Origin: a virus
IMG/VR virus record: IMGVR_UViG_3300008120_000741
Coordinates: 10,035-35,758 of that record
Length of the DNA stretch: 25,724 nt
Reading direction: 5' to 3' (one strand)
The position numbers and the translations under genes are program-made. Within the stretch, counting starts at the first letter, position 1; every line of letters begins with the position of its first letter. Shown in pieces: positions 463 to 23,069 of the stretch. The notes below the pieces were generated by a model, which was given only the letters and a program-made list of their open reading frames with translations, was not told where the DNA came from and made no database searches.

Positions 463-1185
463 GTGATCGATCCCGTCACCATTGCCGCTGCGTACAAGGC
501 AGCGACAACGGCCATCGACATGGCCAAGAAAGGGATCGCGCTTTACAAAGAGATCAAGCAGACGGGCGGCGAGGTCGGCGGGATTCTCAAGGATCTGAAG
601 GAACAGTTCCATAAGATCACCAGCCCGACACCGGAGCAAAAGAAGCAGTACAACGAGGAAGTCAAACGTGTGCAGGAGGTGGCCAAGGCCGCGCCTGCTG
701 ATGTGCTGAACACCGTCTGGGACAACCTGGGTCAGTTCGTTGACCAGTACGACATCATGGTCAAGGCGTACATCGCCAGCGAGGTGAACGCCAAAGAGGT
801 GTACCGCGGCGAGATGTCGCTGGCCAGGCGTGCGCTGGAGCGGCTGAAGGTACGGCACCAGCTGGACTCCATGCTGGCTGAGGTGCGCGAGCAGATGGTC
901 TACAACGCGCCGCCAGAACTGGGCGACCTGTGGACACGGTTTGAAAAGATGTGGCAGCAGATCGTACAGGAGCAGAACGCGGCACTGGCTGAGGAAATGA
1001 GAAAGGCGCAGGTAGCGAGATGGCAACGGGTAAGGGCACTGGAGGACCTAAAAGCAAAGGCGGTATGGATTGGGGCAGTGGTGTTCGTTCTGACATGGTT
1101 CAGCGCCCTCCTAATCCTAATCCGTCTGAGCCACACATACCATACTCTCTTCTCGTTACCGTTCTGGTCTTGTGTCTTGTGCTAG
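463..1185 (+). CDS. Lysis-region membrane protein with C-terminal transmembrane segment
   Basis: This is a 240-residue protein. The start must be GTG at 463, because the ATG at 461 is followed at once by TGA. The body (residues about 10-190) is helical and charged, with long amphipathic stretches. Residues about 200-220 (AVWIGAVVFVLTWFSALLIL) form a clear membrane helix, followed by a short tail rich in aromatic residues and cysteine. Proteins beginning MIDP, with a soluble helical body and a C-terminal membrane helix, occur in lysis regions of environmental podoviruses; the match here is from memory and approximate. The last 166 bases also encode the N-terminus of the next gene in another frame, so the membrane segment lies in dual-coding DNA. 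A holin-like or holin-regulating role is possible but not shown. Confidence 0.65.
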   Translation: MIDPVTIAAAYKAATTAIDMAKKGIALYKEIKQTGGEVGGILKDLKEQFHKITSPTPEQKKQYNEEVKRVQEVAKAAPADVLNTVWDNLGQFVDQYDIMVKAYIASEVNAKEVYRGEMSLARRALERLKVRHQLDSMLAEVREQMVYNAPPELGDLWTRFEKMWQQIVQEQNAALAEEMRKAQVARWQRVRALEDLKAKAVWIGAVVFVLTWFSALLILIRLSHTYHTLFSLPFWSCVLC

Positions 1186-9634: not shown

Positions 9635-10054
9635 ATGGCAGACCTTGTACTTTACGATCGAGAAAGAGTGGCGGATTGGGTTGCCGGCAGGGTTGGGCAG
9701 CAGGTGCAGTGGGAAGGGTATAACGCTTTTGGGGTAGAGCAAGGCGGGCAGTTGGTTGCTGGCGTTGTCGTCCATCAGATTAACGGAGCCAACGCAATTT
9801 GCCACATAGCAATAGACAAGCCGGGTAAGACCTTGTTCTCCCTCTTTTTCGTAGTGGGCGACTACTGCTTCAGGCAGTTAGGGCTCAAGCGGCTGACAGG
9901 TATGGTGCCCACAAACGAACCACACATTATTGCGTTCGACAAGAAGCTTGGGTTTGAAGAAGAATTTGTAATGAAGGATGCCGCCCCCGGGGCGGATTTG
10001 ATGGTCTTGGTCATGTGGGCAGATAAGTGCCGCTGGCTAAAGAGAGGACATTGA
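9635..10054 (+). CDS. GNAT-like acyltransferase fold protein of the virion module
   Basis: This 139-residue protein has GNAT features: an N-terminal helix, the central strands QLVAGVVVHQI and AICHIAID, a helix after LFSLFFVVGDYCFRQLGLKR, the strand LTGMVPTNEPHIIAFDKKLGF (an acetyl-CoA fold motif with N/F-x-x-x-x-GF), and a final EEEFVMKD strand. Position just ahead of the ejection proteins recalls T7 gene 13, and phage GNAT-like proteins in this slot are usually annotated as acetyltransferases. The canonical Q/RxxGxG/A pyrophosphate loop is not clear (GKTLFS stands near it), so catalysis is uncertain. It has no good ribosome binding site before ATG 9635. Confidence 0.7.
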   Translation: MADLVLYDRERVADWVAGRVGQQVQWEGYNAFGVEQGGQLVAGVVVHQINGANAICHIAIDKPGKTLFSLFFVVGDYCFRQLGLKRLTGMVPTNEPHIIAFDKKLGFEEEFVMKDAAPGADLMVLVMWADKCRWLKRGH

Positions 10055-10055
10055 T

Positions 10056-11084
10056 ATGGGCGGAAAATCAGCACCGGCACCGGACTATGCTCCGTTAGCG
10101 CAGGCAAGTAGGGAAGCGGCGCAAATTATGGGCGCTCTTGGCAAAGAGCAGCTTGCGTTTGGTCGGCAACAATACGCCGAGCTATCTCCACTCCTACGTG
10201 GTATCGCTGACACGCAACAGCAAGCGCAGCGCGAGCAGATGAACCAAGCGCGCGATTATTATGACTATATGCGGTCTACTTACCGCCCGGTTGAGCGTGG
10301 TCTAGTTGCTGAAGCCCAGCGGTTTGATACCGAGGCGTATAGAGATCAATTGGCAGCACAAGCAGCTGCAGACGCAGGGCGTGCATTTACCGCCACTCAA
10401 GCAGCGAGCCAACGGGCCATGGGGGCGATGGGGGTTAATCCTGCTTCTGGGCGCTTTGCTGGTATGCAGAACCAAGCCAATCTGGGGCTGGCAGCACAAC
10501 GCGCCGCCGCTATGACAGGTACACGCCAGCAGGCTCAGCAAATGGGCTACGCCCGCAAATTGGATGTCACAGGGCTTGGTCGTGGCCTCCCCGGCGCTTC
10601 GACTGCTGCATACGGAAGCGCGACCGGCGCCGGCACTGCTGCTGGCCAATCCTACATGGCACCGGGTAATCAATTTGCTAACATCTTTGGACAGGGCGCG
10701 CAGACGATTGGACAAGGACTTAATATGCAGAACCAAGGACTTGGCCAGATTCTCAGTACGCAAGGACAAGTGTACGGGCAGTCGATGGCTGCTGGTGATC
10801 CGTTCGCGCAAATCGTTGGCACCGGCCTTGGGGCTTGGGCTGGTGGCGGGTTCAAAGGTCTGTCTGACATCCGAGTTAAAGAAAACATTGAGCGCGTCGG
10901 TACGCACTTCCGCACCCAGTTGCCGATCTATGAGTTCAACTACATCCACATCCCCGAAAAGCGGTTCCGTGGTGTCATGGCGCAGGATGTTGAGAAAGTA
11001 TTCCCTGACGCAGTTGAGACAATGCACGACGGCATCAAGACGGTTAACTACGCGATGCTCGGCATGGAAATGGAGGAAGTTTAA
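10056..11084 (+). CDS. Internal virion-like protein with C-terminal S74 chaperone domain
   Basis: This 342-residue protein starts at ATG 10056 after AGAGGA. Residues 1-260 are alanine, glutamine and glycine rich with long helices (for example LAAQAAADAGRAFTATQAAS) and a glycine-glutamine-asparagine segment at about 210-250, similar in composition to T7 gp14-type ejection proteins. Residues 270-342 are a peptidase S74 intramolecular chaperone domain: LSDIRVKENIERVG with Ser270-Asp271 at the expected self-cleavage point and Lys275, then YEFNYI, FRGVMAQDVEKVFPDAV and a final VNYAMLG. S74 domains trimerise and fold fibres or spikes and then cut themselves off, so this protein is probably trimeric and processed before Ser270. 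Whether it is a true ejection protein or a fibre-like component is open. Confidence 0.72.
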   Translation: MGGKSAPAPDYAPLAQASREAAQIMGALGKEQLAFGRQQYAELSPLLRGIADTQQQAQREQMNQARDYYDYMRSTYRPVERGLVAEAQRFDTEAYRDQLAAQAAADAGRAFTATQAASQRAMGAMGVNPASGRFAGMQNQANLGLAAQRAAAMTGTRQQAQQMGYARKLDVTGLGRGLPGASTAAYGSATGAGTAAGQSYMAPGNQFANIFGQGAQTIGQGLNMQNQGLGQILSTQGQVYGQSMAAGDPFAQIVGTGLGAWAGGGFKGLSDIRVKENIERVGTHFRTQLPIYEFNYIHIPEKRFRGVMAQDVEKVFPDAVETMHDGIKTVNYAMLGMEMEEV

Positions 11085-12700: not shown

Positions 12701-15700
12701 ATGGCAATTTATTCTCTCGCAGACCTACGCTCAACCGCCCCGCAGGACCTGCGGGAGTTGCCGGATGACGAGCTTGTACGTGAGTACAGCAAACGCAAGA
12801 ACGTACCGTTCGAAGATGTTGCTGATTATCTGGGGCTAAAGCCCAGAGGCTTCGTCTCGGAGATGGGTAGGCAGTTGGTTGGCGGTTTGCGCGTAGAAGT
12901 GCCCAAGATGATTGGTCAAGGGCAGCAATTTCTCTCCCGCGAACTGCCGTTTCTTACTGAAGCTTTTGAAGCTGGCGCGCAGGCGCAAGCCGCTGCGCAG
13001 CCCGGCGCGATTACTGCCCCCACAGGACTACGCCCCACCCCGTCCGGCGCTGTTGCTGAGACAGGCCGCAGACTACGTGAAGAAGCCACAGCTGCAGAAC
13101 CTAGCTATGTGCCCGATATGCGTGGTCGTGGTTTGGTACAGGAAACTTTGTTGTCTGGTGCTCGTGCGGTTGGGCCTATTGCTGCTACTGTTCCTGCGGC
13201 GATGGCACCCGGTGGTATGCCTATTGCGGCTGGTATGTTGTTCGGCACGTCGCAAGCGCAAGACACCTACGAGAAATTAATCGCCCAAGGTGTGTCCGAA
13301 GAGGAAGCGCGCCAAGCGTCATATCGCACCGGATTGATTCAAGGCGCAGGCGAAGCTGCAGCTACCTATGTGGGCGGCAAATTGTTCAAGCCTGTGCTCG
13401 GTCGTGCAGGTGGCGGCACTACCGCTGGTGTTGCTGCTGAGATGACTGATACTGGCGTTCTGCGCCCCTTTACAAAAGGGTTGGCCACAAATCTGTTGGT
13501 ACAGCCGTCTACCGAGATCGCACAGGATGTAGGCACTTCGTTGGTGGAACGCGCTTATGGCGGCAAAGAAGAGAACTTGTTCGATATTGCCAAACAGTCT
13601 GCCATGGGCGCCACCGGCTTAACACTGCTACTCGGGCCGTTCGCGCTAGGCGCGCATGTGTCTCGATCGAATAACGCATCTGCTCTAAAAACGGCGTTGT
13701 CTGATGACCCATTGGTCCCGCGTGATGTCCGCGCACAAGCTATTGCTGCAGTGAATGTAGAAGCACAGCGCCAAGGTGTCGATCCGCGTGACATTGGTCG
13801 TTGGACACAAGAGCAAATCGCCCTTGAAGACCGCCGCACCGACGCTTTGCGCCGGATGACAGAGGCTGTGCAGGCTTTGGAAGTTGGAGCCGGCATCGAG
13901 CAGCGCATGGGGATCGGCGCTGAACGACTAGATGAAGCATCTTATATCCAGCAGTTCGAGGAAGCGTTCAACGAGCCTAGTGGGCAGTTTACATACGAAA
14001 CCCTAGCTGATGGCTCCCAAGCCCCACGTGAGTTGACGATGGGCGAGATCATGGAACGTCAAGCACGTAGCGTTGACCCCGTTGCAGCCACAGACTTGCT
14101 TGACTCACAACCCAAGACAGCCAAAGAAATTCTGGCAGAAATCCGACAGGCAGCGAACGACCCACTCTCGCCTAGCATCTGGCGCTTTCCTGTTTCTACC
14201 GGGCTGCAAGGCGACCAGCGTGCTCTTTTTGCTGCTGGCCCTGAAGCGCTAGGCCAGCCTCGTCCAGTTATGGGCGGTTTGGCCCCAGCACAACAAGCAG
14301 CGCTGGGTGGTACCCCGCCGCTCTCGCCGGCGCAAATCATGGCCGCGCGCGGCCCCGTCGATCAAACTACCCCCCGCCCTGCGATGGGACTTGGTGCGGC
14401 TCAACAAGCTGCAGCCGCTGGACCAGCAGCTCTGACTTCTGCGGTTACACCTGTTCCTACAACGGCTCCTTCCGGCAGCCCCCCTGCCGTTTCCCCCGCA
14501 GCTCCGGCTGCTGGGGGTCTTTTACAACCAGCCGCTGCCCCCAAGGGCAAAGCAAAAAAGGCCGCGCCAGCCAAAGTTGCGCTGCCGGCAAAGACGCCCA
14601 TCGCTCGTTCGATTGAACAGGCTATGGAAGAAGAACTTGAACTGGCTGATCGCGAGTCTGACACCGCGCGTATTACCGGCATCCTGAATGAAGTCAACAA
14701 GGAAAAGCTGGGCGCAGAAGTTCAGGGCGCTAAGCAGATCAAAGCTCCGGGGCGCGTCTCGCTGTCACAGCGTTCGCTATTGGGCATTCGTGATGCCATC
14801 TTCCGCAAGTCTGGCAAAGTAGCTAAAGCGTTCGGTCGCAAAGAGCAGCGCGTCGTTGATGCCGTTAGCGAGTTTAGCAATGCCTACGACGCCTATCTTA
14901 ACTACAGCGCTAATATTGCTCGTGAAGTAAAGAAAAACATCCAAGCGAAAGCCGACGAGCGTATCGCCAAGATGGAAGAATTGGCCAAGAATGTGCAGAA
15001 CGCTTTGTTCCGGTTGGGCGAATCGGTAGACAACAACGCCAAGAACGTAGAAGCGATTGTCCGCGTGGTGAAAGACGCTGCACAACGCAAACTGGCAACT
15101 CCCGGCAAAACCAAGGCAGAGACACTTGCTGCGGTCAAGTCGTTGGATACTGCATTGTCGTCCGGCTGGGCTGCAGCGAAGCGCGAGTCGTTCATGAAGG
15201 AACTGCCTGACATGGCTGATGTCAGCAGCCAGCAGATTCGCCCATCGTCTGAGATGCAAGAAAAGACCAAGGGCAAAGCAGTATCCGCGCTGGAAAACGC
15301 GGCCAAGAACGGCTACGTTAACCCACAAGGCAAAGGTGAGAAGTACACTGGTCTGCCCGGCGTGCTGCAGTATCTGCGCTTTAACACTACGCCCATGGGT
15401 CGAGTCCTTGCCCGTGCGCTGCGTGACGCACTGGTTGAGTCCAGCAATCCTGCAAAGATTGCATTCGTTGACAAGACCGGCTCCCGCTACGATCCCAAAA
15501 CCAACACGGTCTACATCAACCGCGAAGAGCAGTCGGCTGAGGTCGTTCTGCACGAGGCTTTCCACGCCGCGCTGCAGTGGTATGTATACCAGAACCCTAA
15601 AGCTCCAGCTGTCGCACAGCTGCAGAAGTCGCTTGACCGCGCGCTGAAAGCTGAGGGTCTGGAAGGCAAGGCTCTGGAAGTTCAGCAGATTCTGCAAAAG

Positions 15701-18661
15701 CTTGTTGACCAGAAACGTGGCATGGACGCTGTGCTGGAGTTGGTGTCTTACACCGCTACCCTAAACGAGTTCCGCCGCGCCATGCAGGAGATCAAGACTG
15801 GCGACGCGCCGAAGTCGTTCCTTGACTCGATTCGTTCTGTCTGGGCGATGTACAAAGCCATCGTGCGCCGCATGTTGGGTGTTGGCGAGAATGTCGCCAG
15901 CGATGTGTTGTCAGCGTCTATGGATTTGTTGGAGCAGTCCACCAAGGCGCAAATTCCTGAGCAGCTAAGCGGCAAAGCCCTGCAGGCAGCGGTGCAGTCG
16001 AACAAAGCTACGCAGACAGCATCTGGTATTACGCTGCAGGATTATCGTGGGTACACAAAACGAGTTGCGCCGGCAGCAATCAGCACCAAGGCTTTCTTTG
16101 ATGCGGTGAACTGGAATGACAATGTATCTAAGAACTTCCAAAAAGTAACTGGTAAGATGGCTGAGGCTATCCGCAAAGACTTTCCTGCGCTTGAGCGGTT
16201 TTTGATTTATATCAACTCTACGTTCAGTGCTGGTGAGACTACCAAAGAAGAGATCGAGAACTTCAAGGTCAACAAGAGCGTTGGTTATCAGCAGATGGAG
16301 CGGTTGGCGAACTTTGTACTGAACCGCCCAGCTGACCAAGTGCGTGCGCTGTTCGATTACATGGACGGCAACAAGAAAGCATTGGATGGTATGGCAGACA
16401 AAGGCATCATGGCCCGCACAGCGGACAACGTCATGGATTGGTTCAAGACCTACGTTGCTGACCTACCTGCTGCCGAGCGTTCGTTCTTTGAGAACAGAAA
16501 GTTTTCCGAGTCGCTGCTATATGCGTCGAAGAGCGCGCAGGTTGCTAGTTCCACGTTCGGTGCCCGCAAGCTCTCTAGCGTCCTTGGTCTAAAGCACAAA
16601 GGCGAATTGAATCTCGAAGGTTCGATGGATTGGATCGCTAAAGACGAGGCTGGCAACCCAGAACTGACTGGTCGTTTCTACCAAGTCTTTAAGAGCGATG
16701 GTTTAAAGCCCGATATGGGCCCTGAGCACGCTGGCTTTATGTCGATCTCCGAGTTCGAGAAACGTGGTCGCCGTGCGCCTGATGGCTTCAAAGTAGACGC
16801 TACTCGTCAGTGGTGGCTATCTCAGTACGACCCAGATAAAGGCTACAAGTTCTCTTCCAGTATGACAGCCAAACAGGCGCTTGAAGAGAACAAGATTGAT
16901 GAACTGGCAAATGCTATGCGCAACACCATGGCTGCATTAGCTAACAACTATGCCAGCCGTCAGTTTTCTAAAGCCATTGCAGCCGACGACACCATAGCAT
17001 TCAATAGCTTGGAAGACGTGCAGAAGTTTACTGGCCGCGTAATTGACGAGTCTCTGGTGCTGGATGTCGGCCAAGAAGAGTCCAAGTCTCCACAGATTCG
17101 CGGTATGTACCGCCGCTCTGGCACTTGGGTGAAGCTGCCCAACTCTACTGCATATGGCGATCTGGCGAACAAATACATTCCCGGTCCTGTGTGGAGTGCC
17201 ATGATCGACATGTCGGATCGTCGTCCGCTGGTTGACCTGAAGGCATACAACACTGGTATGCGCTGGTTCAAGAAGTCCAAGACGGTCTACAACCCCGGCA
17301 CTCATGTAACGAACGTCGCGTCGAATATTACGCTGGCCATGATGCACGACATTCCCATGGCTACGCTGGGCAACGCTGCGCGCATCTTCGCGCTATATGA
17401 AGTCAATCCCAAAGCACTGTCTAGTAAAGAACTGGACATGATGTCTGCGTTCATGAACTCGGGCGCTATGCTAGGTGACTTCTCAAGTTCTGAGGTTAAG
17501 CAAGCTCTATACGACGCTTGGAAAACCAACATGGACACTGGTAATGACAACTCTTTGATGAAGCGCCTTGCTGCGTTTACCAACTACGAGAAGTCGAAAA
17601 CCCAGAAAGCTGTGCAACTGGCTACGAAGATCGGCAAGAAAGCAGATCATTACGCCACCGAGTTGTATGCTGCTGAAGATAACGTCTTCCGACTCGCGGC
17701 GTTTCTTACCAAAGCAGGTGACTTGCAGATGCAGGAAAAGACTGCCACAGCAACGCCCGAGCAACTGCGTGTCGCAGGTGACTTTGCCCGCAAAGCGTTT
17801 TTGGACTACGACATTGACTCCAAAGCTGTTCGGGTTCTGCGACAGTCATTTATTCCGTTTATCTCGTGGGGTTACGCTATCGCCCCAGTGTTAGGCCGTA
17901 TTGCTTTGCACCAGCCATGGAAGATCGCCAACATCATGATGGCGTATTACCTGCTGGAAACTGCTATGGCTTCGATGGGTGATGGCGATGACGATGAACT
18001 TCGCAAAGCTGGTCCTGAGTACATGCGTGAGCGTACGCCCTTCGGTCCTCATATGTTCATTCGTATCCCATTTATGGGCGACGCCGAGAATCCGGTGTAC
18101 TACAAGCTGGGTGACTATGTACCGTTTGCGTCTATAACCAAAGGATTGCCTAATGGTTTGTTCGGACAGTCGTGGATTCCCAGCGTAATTACACCTAGCG
18201 GCCCGATCGTCTCTGCAATATCAGGACTGTTGCTAGGCGTCGATCCTTATAGTGGCAAAGATATACACAAGCCTACGGACTCTGAGTGGGACAAGTTGTT
18301 CAATTCGGCGAAGTTTGCTTACGACACCGCTATGCCACCAGCCGTATCCAGTGCAAATATTAAAAAAGTTAAAGACATCATTGATGAGAAAGAAGGCATA
18401 ACCGGGGCCAAGCCTAGCAGCATGGTGTTTGCCCGTATGATGGGTTTGAAGCTGTACGACTACAACGTCGATGAGTCGTTGGCTATTCAAGACAAGGTTG
18501 TCAAAGGTATTGAACGCGATTTCAAAGCGGCTATGAAAAAAGCTAAGCAGGACGAGTACCGCAAGGGCTATCCTGATTATGAAGCGCTAGATGCGGAGTT
18601 GGACAAACTTCAAGAGCGTATGGATAAACGAATCGCGGAAGTTCGCGGAGAGGAAGAGTAA
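12701..18661 (+). CDS. Giant internal virion protein with HEAFH metallopeptidase-like motif and polyvalent-protein-like C-terminus
   Basis: This 1986-residue protein is the largest gene of the window. Visible regions: small-residue hydrophobic segments at about 150-180 and 300-320, able to insert in membrane; a proline and alanine-rich linker at about 515-640 with basic patches (PKGKAKKAAPAK); a helical charged region at 640-870; a zincin-like motif VVLHEAFHAALQW with His951, Glu952 and His955; a long helical region; a conserved-looking block from YNPGTHVTNVASNITLAM (residue 1530) to FIPFISWGYAIAPVLGR (1717) and a hydrophobic stretch to about 1765; then a lysine/glutamate-rich end. The late block resembles domains of large polyvalent phage proteins (from memory). 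Size and position match the giant ejection protein of T7-like phages (gp16), which crosses the cell envelope. The protease activity is inferred from the motif alone. Confidence 0.7.
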   Translation: MAIYSLADLRSTAPQDLRELPDDELVREYSKRKNVPFEDVADYLGLKPRGFVSEMGRQLVGGLRVEVPKMIGQGQQFLSRELPFLTEAFEAGAQAQAAAQPGAITAPTGLRPTPSGAVAETGRRLREEATAAEPSYVPDMRGRGLVQETLLSGARAVGPIAATVPAAMAPGGMPIAAGMLFGTSQAQDTYEKLIAQGVSEEEARQASYRTGLIQGAGEAAATYVGGKLFKPVLGRAGGGTTAGVAAEMTDTGVLRPFTKGLATNLLVQPSTEIAQDVGTSLVERAYGGKEENLFDIAKQSAMGATGLTLLLGPFALGAHVSRSNNASALKTALSDDPLVPRDVRAQAIAAVNVEAQRQGVDPRDIGRWTQEQIALEDRRTDALRRMTEAVQALEVGAGIEQRMGIGAERLDEASYIQQFEEAFNEPSGQFTYETLADGSQAPRELTMGEIMERQARSVDPVAATDLLDSQPKTAKEILAEIRQAANDPLSPSIWRFPVSTGLQGDQRALFAAGPEALGQPRPVMGGLAPAQQAALGGTPPLSPAQIMAARGPVDQTTPRPAMGLGAAQQAAAAGPAALTSAVTPVPTTAPSGSPPAVSPAAPAAGGLLQPAAAPKGKAKKAAPAKVALPAKTPIARSIEQAMEEELELADRESDTARITGILNEVNKEKLGAEVQGAKQIKAPGRVSLSQRSLLGIRDAIFRKSGKVAKAFGRKEQRVVDAVSEFSNAYDAYLNYSANIAREVKKNIQAKADERIAKMEELAKNVQNALFRLGESVDNNAKNVEAIVRVVKDAAQRKLATPGKTKAETLAAVKSLDTALSSGWAAAKRESFMKELPDMADVSSQQIRPSSEMQEKTKGKAVSALENAAKNGYVNPQGKGEKYTGLPGVLQYLRFNTTPMGRVLARALRDALVESSNPAKIAFVDKTGSRYDPKTNTVYINREEQSAEVVLHEAFHAALQWYVYQNPKAPAVAQLQKSLDRALKAEGLEGKALEVQQILQKLVDQKRGMDAVLELVSYTATLNEFRRAMQEIKTGDAPKSFLDSIRSVWAMYKAIVRRMLGVGENVASDVLSASMDLLEQSTKAQIPEQLSGKALQAAVQSNKATQTASGITLQDYRGYTKRVAPAAISTKAFFDAVNWNDNVSKNFQKVTGKMAEAIRKDFPALERFLIYINSTFSAGETTKEEIENFKVNKSVGYQQMERLANFVLNRPADQVRALFDYMDGNKKALDGMADKGIMARTADNVMDWFKTYVADLPAAERSFFENRKFSESLLYASKSAQVASSTFGARKLSSVLGLKHKGELNLEGSMDWIAKDEAGNPELTGRFYQVFKSDGLKPDMGPEHAGFMSISEFEKRGRRAPDGFKVDATRQWWLSQYDPDKGYKFSSSMTAKQALEENKIDELANAMRNTMAALANNYASRQFSKAIAADDTIAFNSLEDVQKFTGRVIDESLVLDVGQEESKSPQIRGMYRRSGTWVKLPNSTAYGDLANKYIPGPVWSAMIDMSDRRPLVDLKAYNTGMRWFKKSKTVYNPGTHVTNVASNITLAMMHDIPMATLGNAARIFALYEVNPKALSSKELDMMSAFMNSGAMLGDFSSSEVKQALYDAWKTNMDTGNDNSLMKRLAAFTNYEKSKTQKAVQLATKIGKKADHYATELYAAEDNVFRLAAFLTKAGDLQMQEKTATATPEQLRVAGDFARKAFLDYDIDSKAVRVLRQSFIPFISWGYAIAPVLGRIALHQPWKIANIMMAYYLLETAMASMGDGDDDELRKAGPEYMRERTPFGPHMFIRIPFMGDAENPVYYKLGDYVPFASITKGLPNGLFGQSWIPSVITPSGPIVSAISGLLLGVDPYSGKDIHKPTDSEWDKLFNSAKFAYDTAMPPAVSSANIKKVKDIIDEKEGITGAKPSSMVFARMMGLKLYDYNVDESLAIQDKVVKGIERDFKAAMKKAKQDEYRKGYPDYEALDAELDKLQERMDKRIAEVRGEEE

Positions 18662-20105: not shown

Positions 20106-23069
20106 CTAAGTTTGTCCACCTTGCAGCACTGCTAGCGCCACGGGACTCTGTAATCTGGCTGAAGTGCTAGTCAGCGCATCTACAAAGCGCGGGTGGTTGA
20201 TGTTAACAATCAGGCAGTGTGCCTGTCCGGGATTACGGTTATGACATCCCTTGAACATAGTAACCCGCTCACGTGCAGATATCAATGCCCCGTTCTGCTC
20301 CAACTCCCGCACTACTCGATCGACTCCGTCTCTGGTCTTTGACAGCCACCTCTTCAGCGCCGACAGATTGATCGTCAGGTTGCTGCCCGGCATGACGGGG
20401 GTGTTGCTGTCGTAGACCACCTTAATCCTTGCCACAGCCCGCTCAGGCGCCGGGATATGCACCTGCTCTTTGGCCGAGCCGTAGACCTCAGTGACCTCGA
20501 TCAGCTGGTCGTTATGCTCTTGCAGGAACTGGCCGATGGTGTCGAACACATCCTGCTTGCTAGCCTCGGTGTCCTTGCGGGTCTGCTTCACGCAGTCAAT
20601 TAGGTACTGGGTTGTGGCGTCCACGTCAAACGGCAGCAGACCGAGCTTCTGGCCGATCTTGGCAATAATCCAGCCGTTGATGATGCCCGATCGATAGAAC
20701 CGCTCCTGCGGCTCGAACATGAAGTTGAACCGGCGCTGGAAAGCATCCACGCCTTTCTTATAGACAAGCTCAGGGCCACCCATGGCTACCACGGCCTCGA
20801 CCAGTTCCGGGTACGCCCAGCCATTGTTCTTGGCGATCAGGTCGAAGAACCGATAGCCGTTGCTGTAGCCGGTGGCGTCCGTCTCGATGAATGTGCGGTC
20901 ATGGTGGTGGAGCTCGATCACCCGGGCGCGCAGCGGGTCGTTGCTGGTCTGGACGTTGTCGAACTTCTGGTGCAGCGAGATGTTGGTCGTAATCAGTGTG
21001 GGGCCATCCCACTTGACGGGTTCTCTGATCTCCCGGTCTTTGGACATGGAAATCTTCTCACGCCCTTGGCTCAGGTTATAAGCCAAGTCAGCCACATCCT
21101 CGTCAGATGCCGTGGTCAACTCGTCGATGGTGCATGGCAGATTGTTCAGCACGCCACGTATTTTAAACAGCGCGTTGCTGGTATCCAGCTTAGTCATGAA
21201 CAGGTCGCGCGGGTGGCCGATCAGGCTGTTGGCACCCATCAACGCCAACGTCTTGCCGGTGGTCGTCTCTGTGGAGTAGATCGACACAACCAGCGAAGCA
21301 TTGCCAGATACCTTGCCCAGCAGCCCAGAGAGCGCCAGCACGATCGCGGAGCGCAGTGTATGTGTGCCCGGCTCGTTGAGCATATTCATCGCGTCTATCC
21401 ACGTCTGGCGGTCGCCATGTGGCTTGATGATCTCTGAGTAGCGCGAAGCCGCGCCGCGCAGGCGGCGGTCTGTACTGCCCGTGGGCGAGTTGATGATCTT
21501 CTCGCCACACAAAAATGACTCGTCATCCTGCCAGCCGAACGCGACAAAATCGACGCCGGTAGGAGACTGTTGCTGCACCATTGTTAAGTAGTCCATTAAG
21601 TAACCTCGTAATTTTTCCTGCTGGCCTACGCCCTTTAAACCAAACACCTGCCTATTGAGTAGGAAGGTTGCGAAATCCTTTCCGATCGTAGCGATTACTG
21701 ATACTTCGTGATCTTCTTCCTGCCACCCTGTCATCGGGTATTTAATAGCCAGTCTGAATGTTGTCTTGCCTGATACACCATCTTTGTACACACCTGTGAT
21801 GTGCATGGGATATGGCGATATCAACTCCCAGTCTGTTGTCGTTACTGTTGCCGCATTGCCGTTGGCGTCTGTGACTTCAGTCTCGATACTTACTTCTTTG
21901 AATATCTTGTTGTCTTTCTCTACGTATGGCTTGGGCAGTTCGATTTCAATAGCTTCGCCTTGTTCGTCAATGACGGTGCTGGTCGGCGATGATGATAGTT
22001 GCGCAGGGCTGGTGATCTTGCCTTTGTGTGGGCATCCCTTGCATCCTTCCATGCACAGCTGTTCGAACTTGGCGCAAGTGGTTGGACCTGTGCCTTTCCA
22101 CCCAGCCATCTTATTCATGCTGTCATTCAGATCAAAGTCAGGATGTTTCCCCGCCAGCATAATGACAGCTTCTTTGACATCGGTAGCGTGCTTAGCCAGC
22201 CCCAGTGACGCCCTCCACATCGGCTCCTGCACTGGGCTCCCCGATGCGTCTGTCACCCCACCACTGGAAAGTAGCGCTCGGATTTGTTTGCAGTGCTGAC
22301 CTACGACGGACACGATCACGTCGTTGGTGTTCAAAACGGCGGAGGCAATCGACGACTTCGTAGTCTTTTGGGTAGGTCGTTGTTTGGTGGCTTTGCCGAA
22401 CCATGGCTTCAACGTAGTGAAAAGCTGAATCGGATCGTAGTCGGGGCAGTCGAGTTTGCATTCAACAAGTTTCCAAGGCTGTTGTTTTTTATGATAAGTA
22501 CCGACGGGGCGAAGCACCATCGATGTGTCGTGAATTTTTGTAGTGTCAATTACTACGTCATTTTCTTCCAGAGCGATACGCAACGCTGTAGAAGCTTTCG
22601 TCCAGTGCTCCGCACTAATCGGCGTAGTAAGCGGCCAATAGCAGTGCAGCCCACGACCAGATGATATGACCATGGGTGTTGGGAAGTTGATCGCAGCAAG
22701 CGCGAGTCTGAGCGCAGCCCATCCTTCCTTCTGGGTGGCATATGGCTTATCGCTTCCAATATCCAGATCAAGCGCCAGCGCCTTAAACCAAGTCGCTTTG
22801 TCTTGAGTGCGTCTCCACTTTTTTCTTCCATTAACGTCAACATAGTCATGTCCTGCAAATGCGCCTACGCCGAAATAGACTGTCGTTTCTTTTTCTTGAT
22901 CCCATTGCGATATGGCTGCAACGGCGTCATCAATATTCGAGAATGAACCACGATTCCAGAAGAACCCGTTCTTCAGATTACCTGCAGGGTCTGGCTTCCA
23001 TGTTGCTACAACTAGTTCATCTCGTTGGGCGAATACGCGAGTAAGAAAGTTTTTAGTATCCAATTCCAT
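20106..23069 (-). CDS. Primase-polymerase / helicase-like ATPase fusion
   Basis: This 987-residue replication protein has an N-terminal archaeo-eukaryotic primase domain: motif I ALALDLDIG with Asp101 and Asp103, motif II SSGRGLHCYW (136-145, His142), and motif III SMVLRPVGTYHKK (Arg187, Lys194-195). A cysteine cluster follows (Cys332, 339, 343, 346 and His348), likely zinc-binding. The C-terminal part is a P-loop ATPase of DUF927 type: Walker A ending TTTGKT (GKT 605-607), Walker B-like NLPCTIDE (643-650) and sensor-like TLITTN (691-696). It probably primes and unwinds DNA at the phage fork. The gene begins about ten bases past a terminator, with GAGGG close to ATG, suggesting controlled read-through or its own promoter. 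G+C is higher in the 3' half. Confidence 0.88.
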   Translation of the reverse strand: MELDTKNFLTRVFAQRDELVVATWKPDPAGNLKNGFFWNRGSFSNIDDAVAAISQWDQEKETTVYFGVGAFAGHDYVDVNGRKKWRRTQDKATWFKALALDLDIGSDKPYATQKEGWAALRLALAAINFPTPMVISSGRGLHCYWPLTTPISAEHWTKASTALRIALEENDVVIDTTKIHDTSMVLRPVGTYHKKQQPWKLVECKLDCPDYDPIQLFTTLKPWFGKATKQRPTQKTTKSSIASAVLNTNDVIVSVVGQHCKQIRALLSSGGVTDASGSPVQEPMWRASLGLAKHATDVKEAVIMLAGKHPDFDLNDSMNKMAGWKGTGPTTCAKFEQLCMEGCKGCPHKGKITSPAQLSSSPTSTVIDEQGEAIEIELPKPYVEKDNKIFKEVSIETEVTDANGNAATVTTTDWELISPYPMHITGVYKDGVSGKTTFRLAIKYPMTGWQEEDHEVSVIATIGKDFATFLLNRQVFGLKGVGQQEKLRGYLMDYLTMVQQQSPTGVDFVAFGWQDDESFLCGEKIINSPTGSTDRRLRGAASRYSEIIKPHGDRQTWIDAMNMLNEPGTHTLRSAIVLALSGLLGKVSGNASLVVSIYSTETTTGKTLALMGANSLIGHPRDLFMTKLDTSNALFKIRGVLNNLPCTIDELTTASDEDVADLAYNLSQGREKISMSKDREIREPVKWDGPTLITTNISLHQKFDNVQTSNDPLRARVIELHHHDRTFIETDATGYSNGYRFFDLIAKNNGWAYPELVEAVVAMGGPELVYKKGVDAFQRRFNFMFEPQERFYRSGIINGWIIAKIGQKLGLLPFDVDATTQYLIDCVKQTRKDTEASKQDVFDTIGQFLQEHNDQLIEVTEVYGSAKEQVHIPAPERAVARIKVVYDSNTPVMPGSNLTINLSALKRWLSKTRDGVDRVVRELEQNGALISARERVTMFKGCHNRNPGQAHCLIVNINHPRFVDALTSTSARLQSPVALAVLQGGQT

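Follow-up and report, generated by a model that had tools for sequence, protein, structure and literature searches.

A predicted zincin metallopeptidase domain beside a recurrently filled insertion slot in a giant polyvalent phage protein

A giant protein encoded in a stretch of viral DNA of 25,724 nucleotides (positions 10,035 to 35,758 of the IMG/VR record IMGVR_UViG_3300008120_000741, referred to here as the window) carries a zincin site, HExxH...E, which a structural model supports as intact. The domain is a diverged addition to the polyvalent-protein metallopeptidase described by Iyer et al. (2017, PMC5512222). Domains of this kind have already been found in phiKMV-type internal virion proteins and in the N4 virion RNA polymerase (vRNAP), so that the combination is not new (PMC5512222; PMC12633501). 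The new detail is that the only hot-spot for large insertions in this protein family lies directly behind the zincin. The computation supports the fold, the ligand set, strict conservation, the polyvalent context and the turnover of cargo in the neighbouring slot. The features are collected in Table 1.

Table 1. Features of the giant protein and their positions in the window
Feature	Residues	Position	Strand	Basis
Giant polyvalent/probable ejection protein	1986 aa	12701..18661	+	ORF; cassette position; C-terminal fold
Variable N-terminal region	1-380	12701..13840	+	relatives 42-57% or 17-24% identical
Zincin metallopeptidase domain (predicted)	884-1080	15350..15940	+	AlphaFold2; fold matches; hhalign to 9sfn_G
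HEAFH	951-955	15551..15565	+	H951, E952 and H955 invariant in 47/47 non-redundant relatives
Predicted third zinc ligand, within conserved D-A-V-L-E-L-x-S-Y	E1013	15737..15739	+	47/47; model; 9sfn_G alignment
Linker motif GKALQAAVQS, empty cargo slot in the window	1091-1100	15971..16000	+	inserts in relatives
C-terminal module, large-polyvalent-protein-associated type	1121-1986	16061..18658	+	AlphaFold2, Foldseek, conservation

Fold and active site of the zincin domain

The HExxH motif occurs once in the giant protein, where about 0.004 would be expected by chance from its content of 11 His and 130 Glu among 1986 residues, and it stands in the same frame in two loci (L001 and L014) that are 100% identical to the query. 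Two scans of IMG/VR gave 13 and 79 loci, partly on the same contigs. The larger scan used the patterns ALQWYVY and DAVLEL[IV]S, which lie near the HExxH motif without containing it. The motif is kept in all 78 loci covering the site, a further one (L092) ending before it. An alignment of 47 rows and 245 columns, held below 90% identity and extending down to 27% identity to the window protein, has just 16 invariant columns. These include H951, E952, H955 and E1013 (each 47/47), the invariance of E1013 being partly favoured by the search since the pattern DAVLEL[IV]S contains this residue. The distance from H955 to E1013 ranges from 58 to 81 residues across the relatives, with the Glu itself fixed. 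Alternative codons for His and for Glu occur at each of the four sites and, as both codons of each amino acid are used, the constraint acts on the protein. H951 and H955 are predicted to be zinc ligands and E952 the general base.

AlphaFold2 modelled the domain from the 47-row alignment with a pLDDT of 91.3 and a pTM of 0.90. In the numbering of the model, helix 33-47 is followed by strands 54-58, 64-66 and 71-75, the HExxH helix (81-99, holding HEAFH), two inserted helices and helix 142-155, the second conserved C-terminal helix, in which E1013 is residue 148. Every one of the nine best Foldseek matches in the PDB is a zinc metallopeptidase or a protein of zincin fold, among them M1 peptidase, selecase, IrrE and jannalysin, although each match is weak by itself (E > 0.1). 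Among viral models the matches reach E 4e-10 and include virion RNA polymerases, entries labelled 'large polyvalent protein' and internal core proteins of phiKMV-type Pseudomonas phages.

A preliminary description of this DNA had placed a zincin-type HEAFH motif between positions 15530 and 15600, inside a 1986-residue protein. The ORF has this length, VVLHEAFHAALQW is present and the motif lies within the interval. Its assignment as a zincin is borne out by the fold, the ligand set and the conservation among relatives. For the downstream third zinc ligand, which was to be sought, the predicted residue is E1013, invariant and located in the conserved C-terminal helix of the model. Loss of His951, Glu952 or His955 in relatives, or a fold without a zinc site, had been named as grounds for abandoning the assignment; none of the three residues is lost in any of the 47 rows, and the model has zincin topology instead.

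Known families and the remainder of the giant protein

The whole window protein has no significant family in Pfam or PHROGs, and a single-sequence phmmer search of the PDB returned noise. Tox-MPTase4 (PF15640) scores 12.0 bits against the window domain, below its curated cut-off of 25, and is matched by 11 of the 47 family members, with a best E of 1e-4. Pfam matches to SprT-like and HTH_67, both below cut-off, were set aside, as was a Talin match seen in four of the 47 members alone. Searched with a family profile, the PDB yields chain 9sfn_G (E 0.007), named 'internal virion protein', over a region spanning HEAVH and KELVAWG, and hhalign of the zincin with this segment gives 95%. tblastn with the 9sfn_G stretch leads to phiKMV-type Pseudomonas phages (LKD16 gp37 and others) and to N4-like virion RNA polymerases. 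Among isolated phages, tblastn found no close relative of the window protein, a single weak C-terminal match being returned, and no match to the most distant zincin of the family; a prophage copy of the giant protein was not found in bacterial genomes.

The core of the polyvalent MPTase consists of a helix, three strands, the HExxH helix, a variable insert and a helix bearing Glu (PMC5512222). The window domain shares with it the HExxH helix, the Glu in a second C-terminal helix, the three-stranded sheet and the variable insert between helices. Common to both, too, are a giant multidomain phage protein as carrier and an ART-PolyVal partner, here in relatives. Unlike the named polyvalent MPTases, the window protein is too diverged to be named by Pfam. 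The widespread clade of PMC5512222 has a His in strand 2 and an Asp after HExxH, whereas the window domain appears to have neither; invariant T936 and conserved Q959 occupy these parts.

In phiKMV-type gp37 (9sfn_G, 1337 aa), HEAVH and the Glu of KELVAWG align with HEAFH and E1013. gp37 belongs to the internal core of a short-tailed phage, as the giant protein probably does, but it is shorter, it matches in the zincin stretch alone, and some of its records annotate an endolysin or lysozyme motif. The N4 vRNAP structure paper places an HExxH motif in the C1 domain, residues 2124-2375. In this giant ejected protein, as in the present, probably ejected one, an extensive and mainly helical C-terminal region comes after an HExxH zincin (PMC12633501). 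No T7-type RNA polymerase family was found in the window's record or in seven relatives, a search in which the control genomes gave none either. The contrast drawn earlier with the transglycosylase of T7 gp16 holds within the scope of the searches: Pfam detects no SLT (lytic transglycosylase) domain in the giant ORF, and the SLT family was not found in the records of four relatives.

Besides the zincin, the C-terminal module is the second strongly conserved part of the giant protein. Its 866 residues (pLDDT 77) have no relevant match in the PDB. Against viral models the matches reach E 1e-74 and are polyvalent proteins, as the preliminary description had surmised from sequence: proteins with a 'large polyvalent protein associated domain' and entries named helicase, zeta toxin, ART, methylase and lytic transglycosylase. 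UniProt A0A6J7WQ13 is the best viral match for zincin and C-terminus alike, so that the databases already contain, under the name of a polyvalent protein, a relative spanning both parts. The window protein thus joins unrelated domains in one polypeptide with polyvalent partners, an MPTase and an LPD-type C-terminus, to which relatives add the PF18760 ART above cut-off (n=9). The N-terminal 380 residues are mosaic, with at least two dissimilar types among relatives.

The gene for the giant protein ends a structural cassette in which families of virion and ejection proteins precede it. Upstream lie genes for a portal-like and a major head protein and for a family of ejection or virion structural proteins; this position, together with the relatives, makes it likely that the giant protein is packaged and ejected with the genome.

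The insertion slot behind the zincin

Inserts of more than 100 residues in the 41 complete relatives fall at a single site, after window residue ~1088 and just past the zincin. The slot is filled in 11 of the 41, by inserts of 138-303 residues. Nine of these (in L029, L035, L049, L050, L057, L070, L075, L020 and L028) are ART-PolyVal domains (PF18760) above the Pfam cut-off; the slots of L051 and L059 hold other sequences. The L051 insert (L051:5585-6283) looks ParB/DdrB-like by eye (GHEGRHRARALKEAG), with no confirming match in Pfam or the PDB. ART-PolyVal was not found in the window's record. On a quick tree built without the slot region, on which gains and losses are indistinguishable, the slot switches between filled and empty at least 10 times, and ART-PolyVal between present and absent at least nine times.

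Slots without an insert mostly have one GNxLEAAV-like motif, while filled slots have one on either side, the upstream copy often being degenerate. In a close pair of relatives, L026 and L029, the difference is the ART, and the stretches that match overlap by 19 nt at the motif. DNA identity between the two rises from 82.7% upstream of the slot to 95.6% downstream. Together with the 19-nt overlap, this rise suggests recombination at or near the slot junction.

Cleavage could take place at the repeated linker motif; on the model it could equally be a part completing the domain, with L1094-Q1095 placed in a short strand at fair confidence, and it could equally mark a recombination junction. Seven further ORFs from the structural cassette lack a GNxLEAAV-type motif, and elsewhere in the giant proteins one stray match was seen, in one relative. 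A general processing site is not supported, given that the motif does not recur in the cassette ORFs.

Role of the peptidase

Metallopeptidase is the commonest polyvalent-protein domain, and its candidate roles are self-processing, processing of partners and attack on host proteins. The present domain is, we consider with slightly better than even confidence, a catalytically intact zincin of a polyvalent ejection protein, cutting the giant protein, partner ejection proteins or both. Ejection, proteolysis and target are here what we infer. The giant protein would be packaged and later ejected along with the genome; H951, H955 and E1013 would hold zinc and E952 would activate water. During packaging or after entry, the peptidase would cut the giant protein itself and/or its partners at linkers, and thereby may release functional parts, among them the ART or other domain that some relatives carry. 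Attack on host proteins is a possible second role. The zincin is present in all relatives and ART in a minority, which separates the role of the peptidase from the ART cargo. A peptidase that is never lost, beside a cargo that most members lack, should mainly do something that all members share. A core role in cutting the giant protein or its partners is thus most likely, ahead of cargo release alone or host attack. Of the two targets suggested in the preliminary description, other ejection proteins would accord with this better than host defence proteins. Precedents from the literature point both ways: P1 DdrB likewise contains an MPTase and undergoes proteolytic processing ahead of packaging, whereas N4 vRNAP, whose domain is of the same kind, is packaged uncut, which counts against processing (PMC5512222). 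The PDB fold matches, none of which reaches E 0.001 by itself, also weigh against the proposed reading.

The zincin might instead be an injected effector which cleaves a host protein, defensive or regulatory, after entry. This role is allowed by Iyer et al. (PMC5512222), and it would accord with the weak family similarity to the polymorphic-toxin metallopeptidase Tox-MPTase4 and with an adjoining slot that accepts ART effectors. A host-directed weapon should, however, diversify or vanish, as ART does, and the zincin persists in every relative, its active site unchanged; we regard this explanation as unlikely, if far from negligible. The fold might also be kept as a scaffold for packaging or ejection, binding zinc with no proteolysis in the life cycle. 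The region of N4 vRNAP with the domain is needed for encapsidation of a protein that is packaged whole (PMC5512222), and the accessible part of the N4 structure paper notes the motif without reporting an activity (PMC12633501). Structure alone would not obviously demand E952, yet this residue, not a zinc ligand, is invariant with both Glu codons in use, and a purely structural role seems improbable.

Less probable again is a plug-in slot in which ART or other effectors are swapped between two GNxLEAAV copies, the peptidase cutting the motifs and releasing the cargo in the host. Were this true, the protein would be a phage delivery cartridge carrying its own release enzyme. The family suggests that the function of the domain cannot rest on slot cargo alone. 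Natural pairs with and without an effector beside an invariant peptidase, such as L026 and L029, make release directly testable, and the recurrently filled slot is the part worth following. A chance HExxH in a helical region lacking a zinc site would fit the lack of a significant family when Pfam is searched with the window protein by itself. The expected number of such motifs, the invariance of the site, and the confident fold with its zincin neighbours speak against chance, conservation and model already contradicting it, and we give it scarcely any credence.

Elsewhere in the window, positions 10056-11084 encode a virion/ejection-family protein whose C-terminal domain is Peptidase_S74 (E 4.5e-10), an intramolecular chaperone of a kind generally known for self-cleavage. 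A gene for a GNAT-type acyltransferase (9635-10054; phrog_4470) lies within the structural cassette. On the minus strand, positions 20106-23069 encode a DUF927 helicase/primase-like protein with a weak LigD prim-pol match near its N-terminus.
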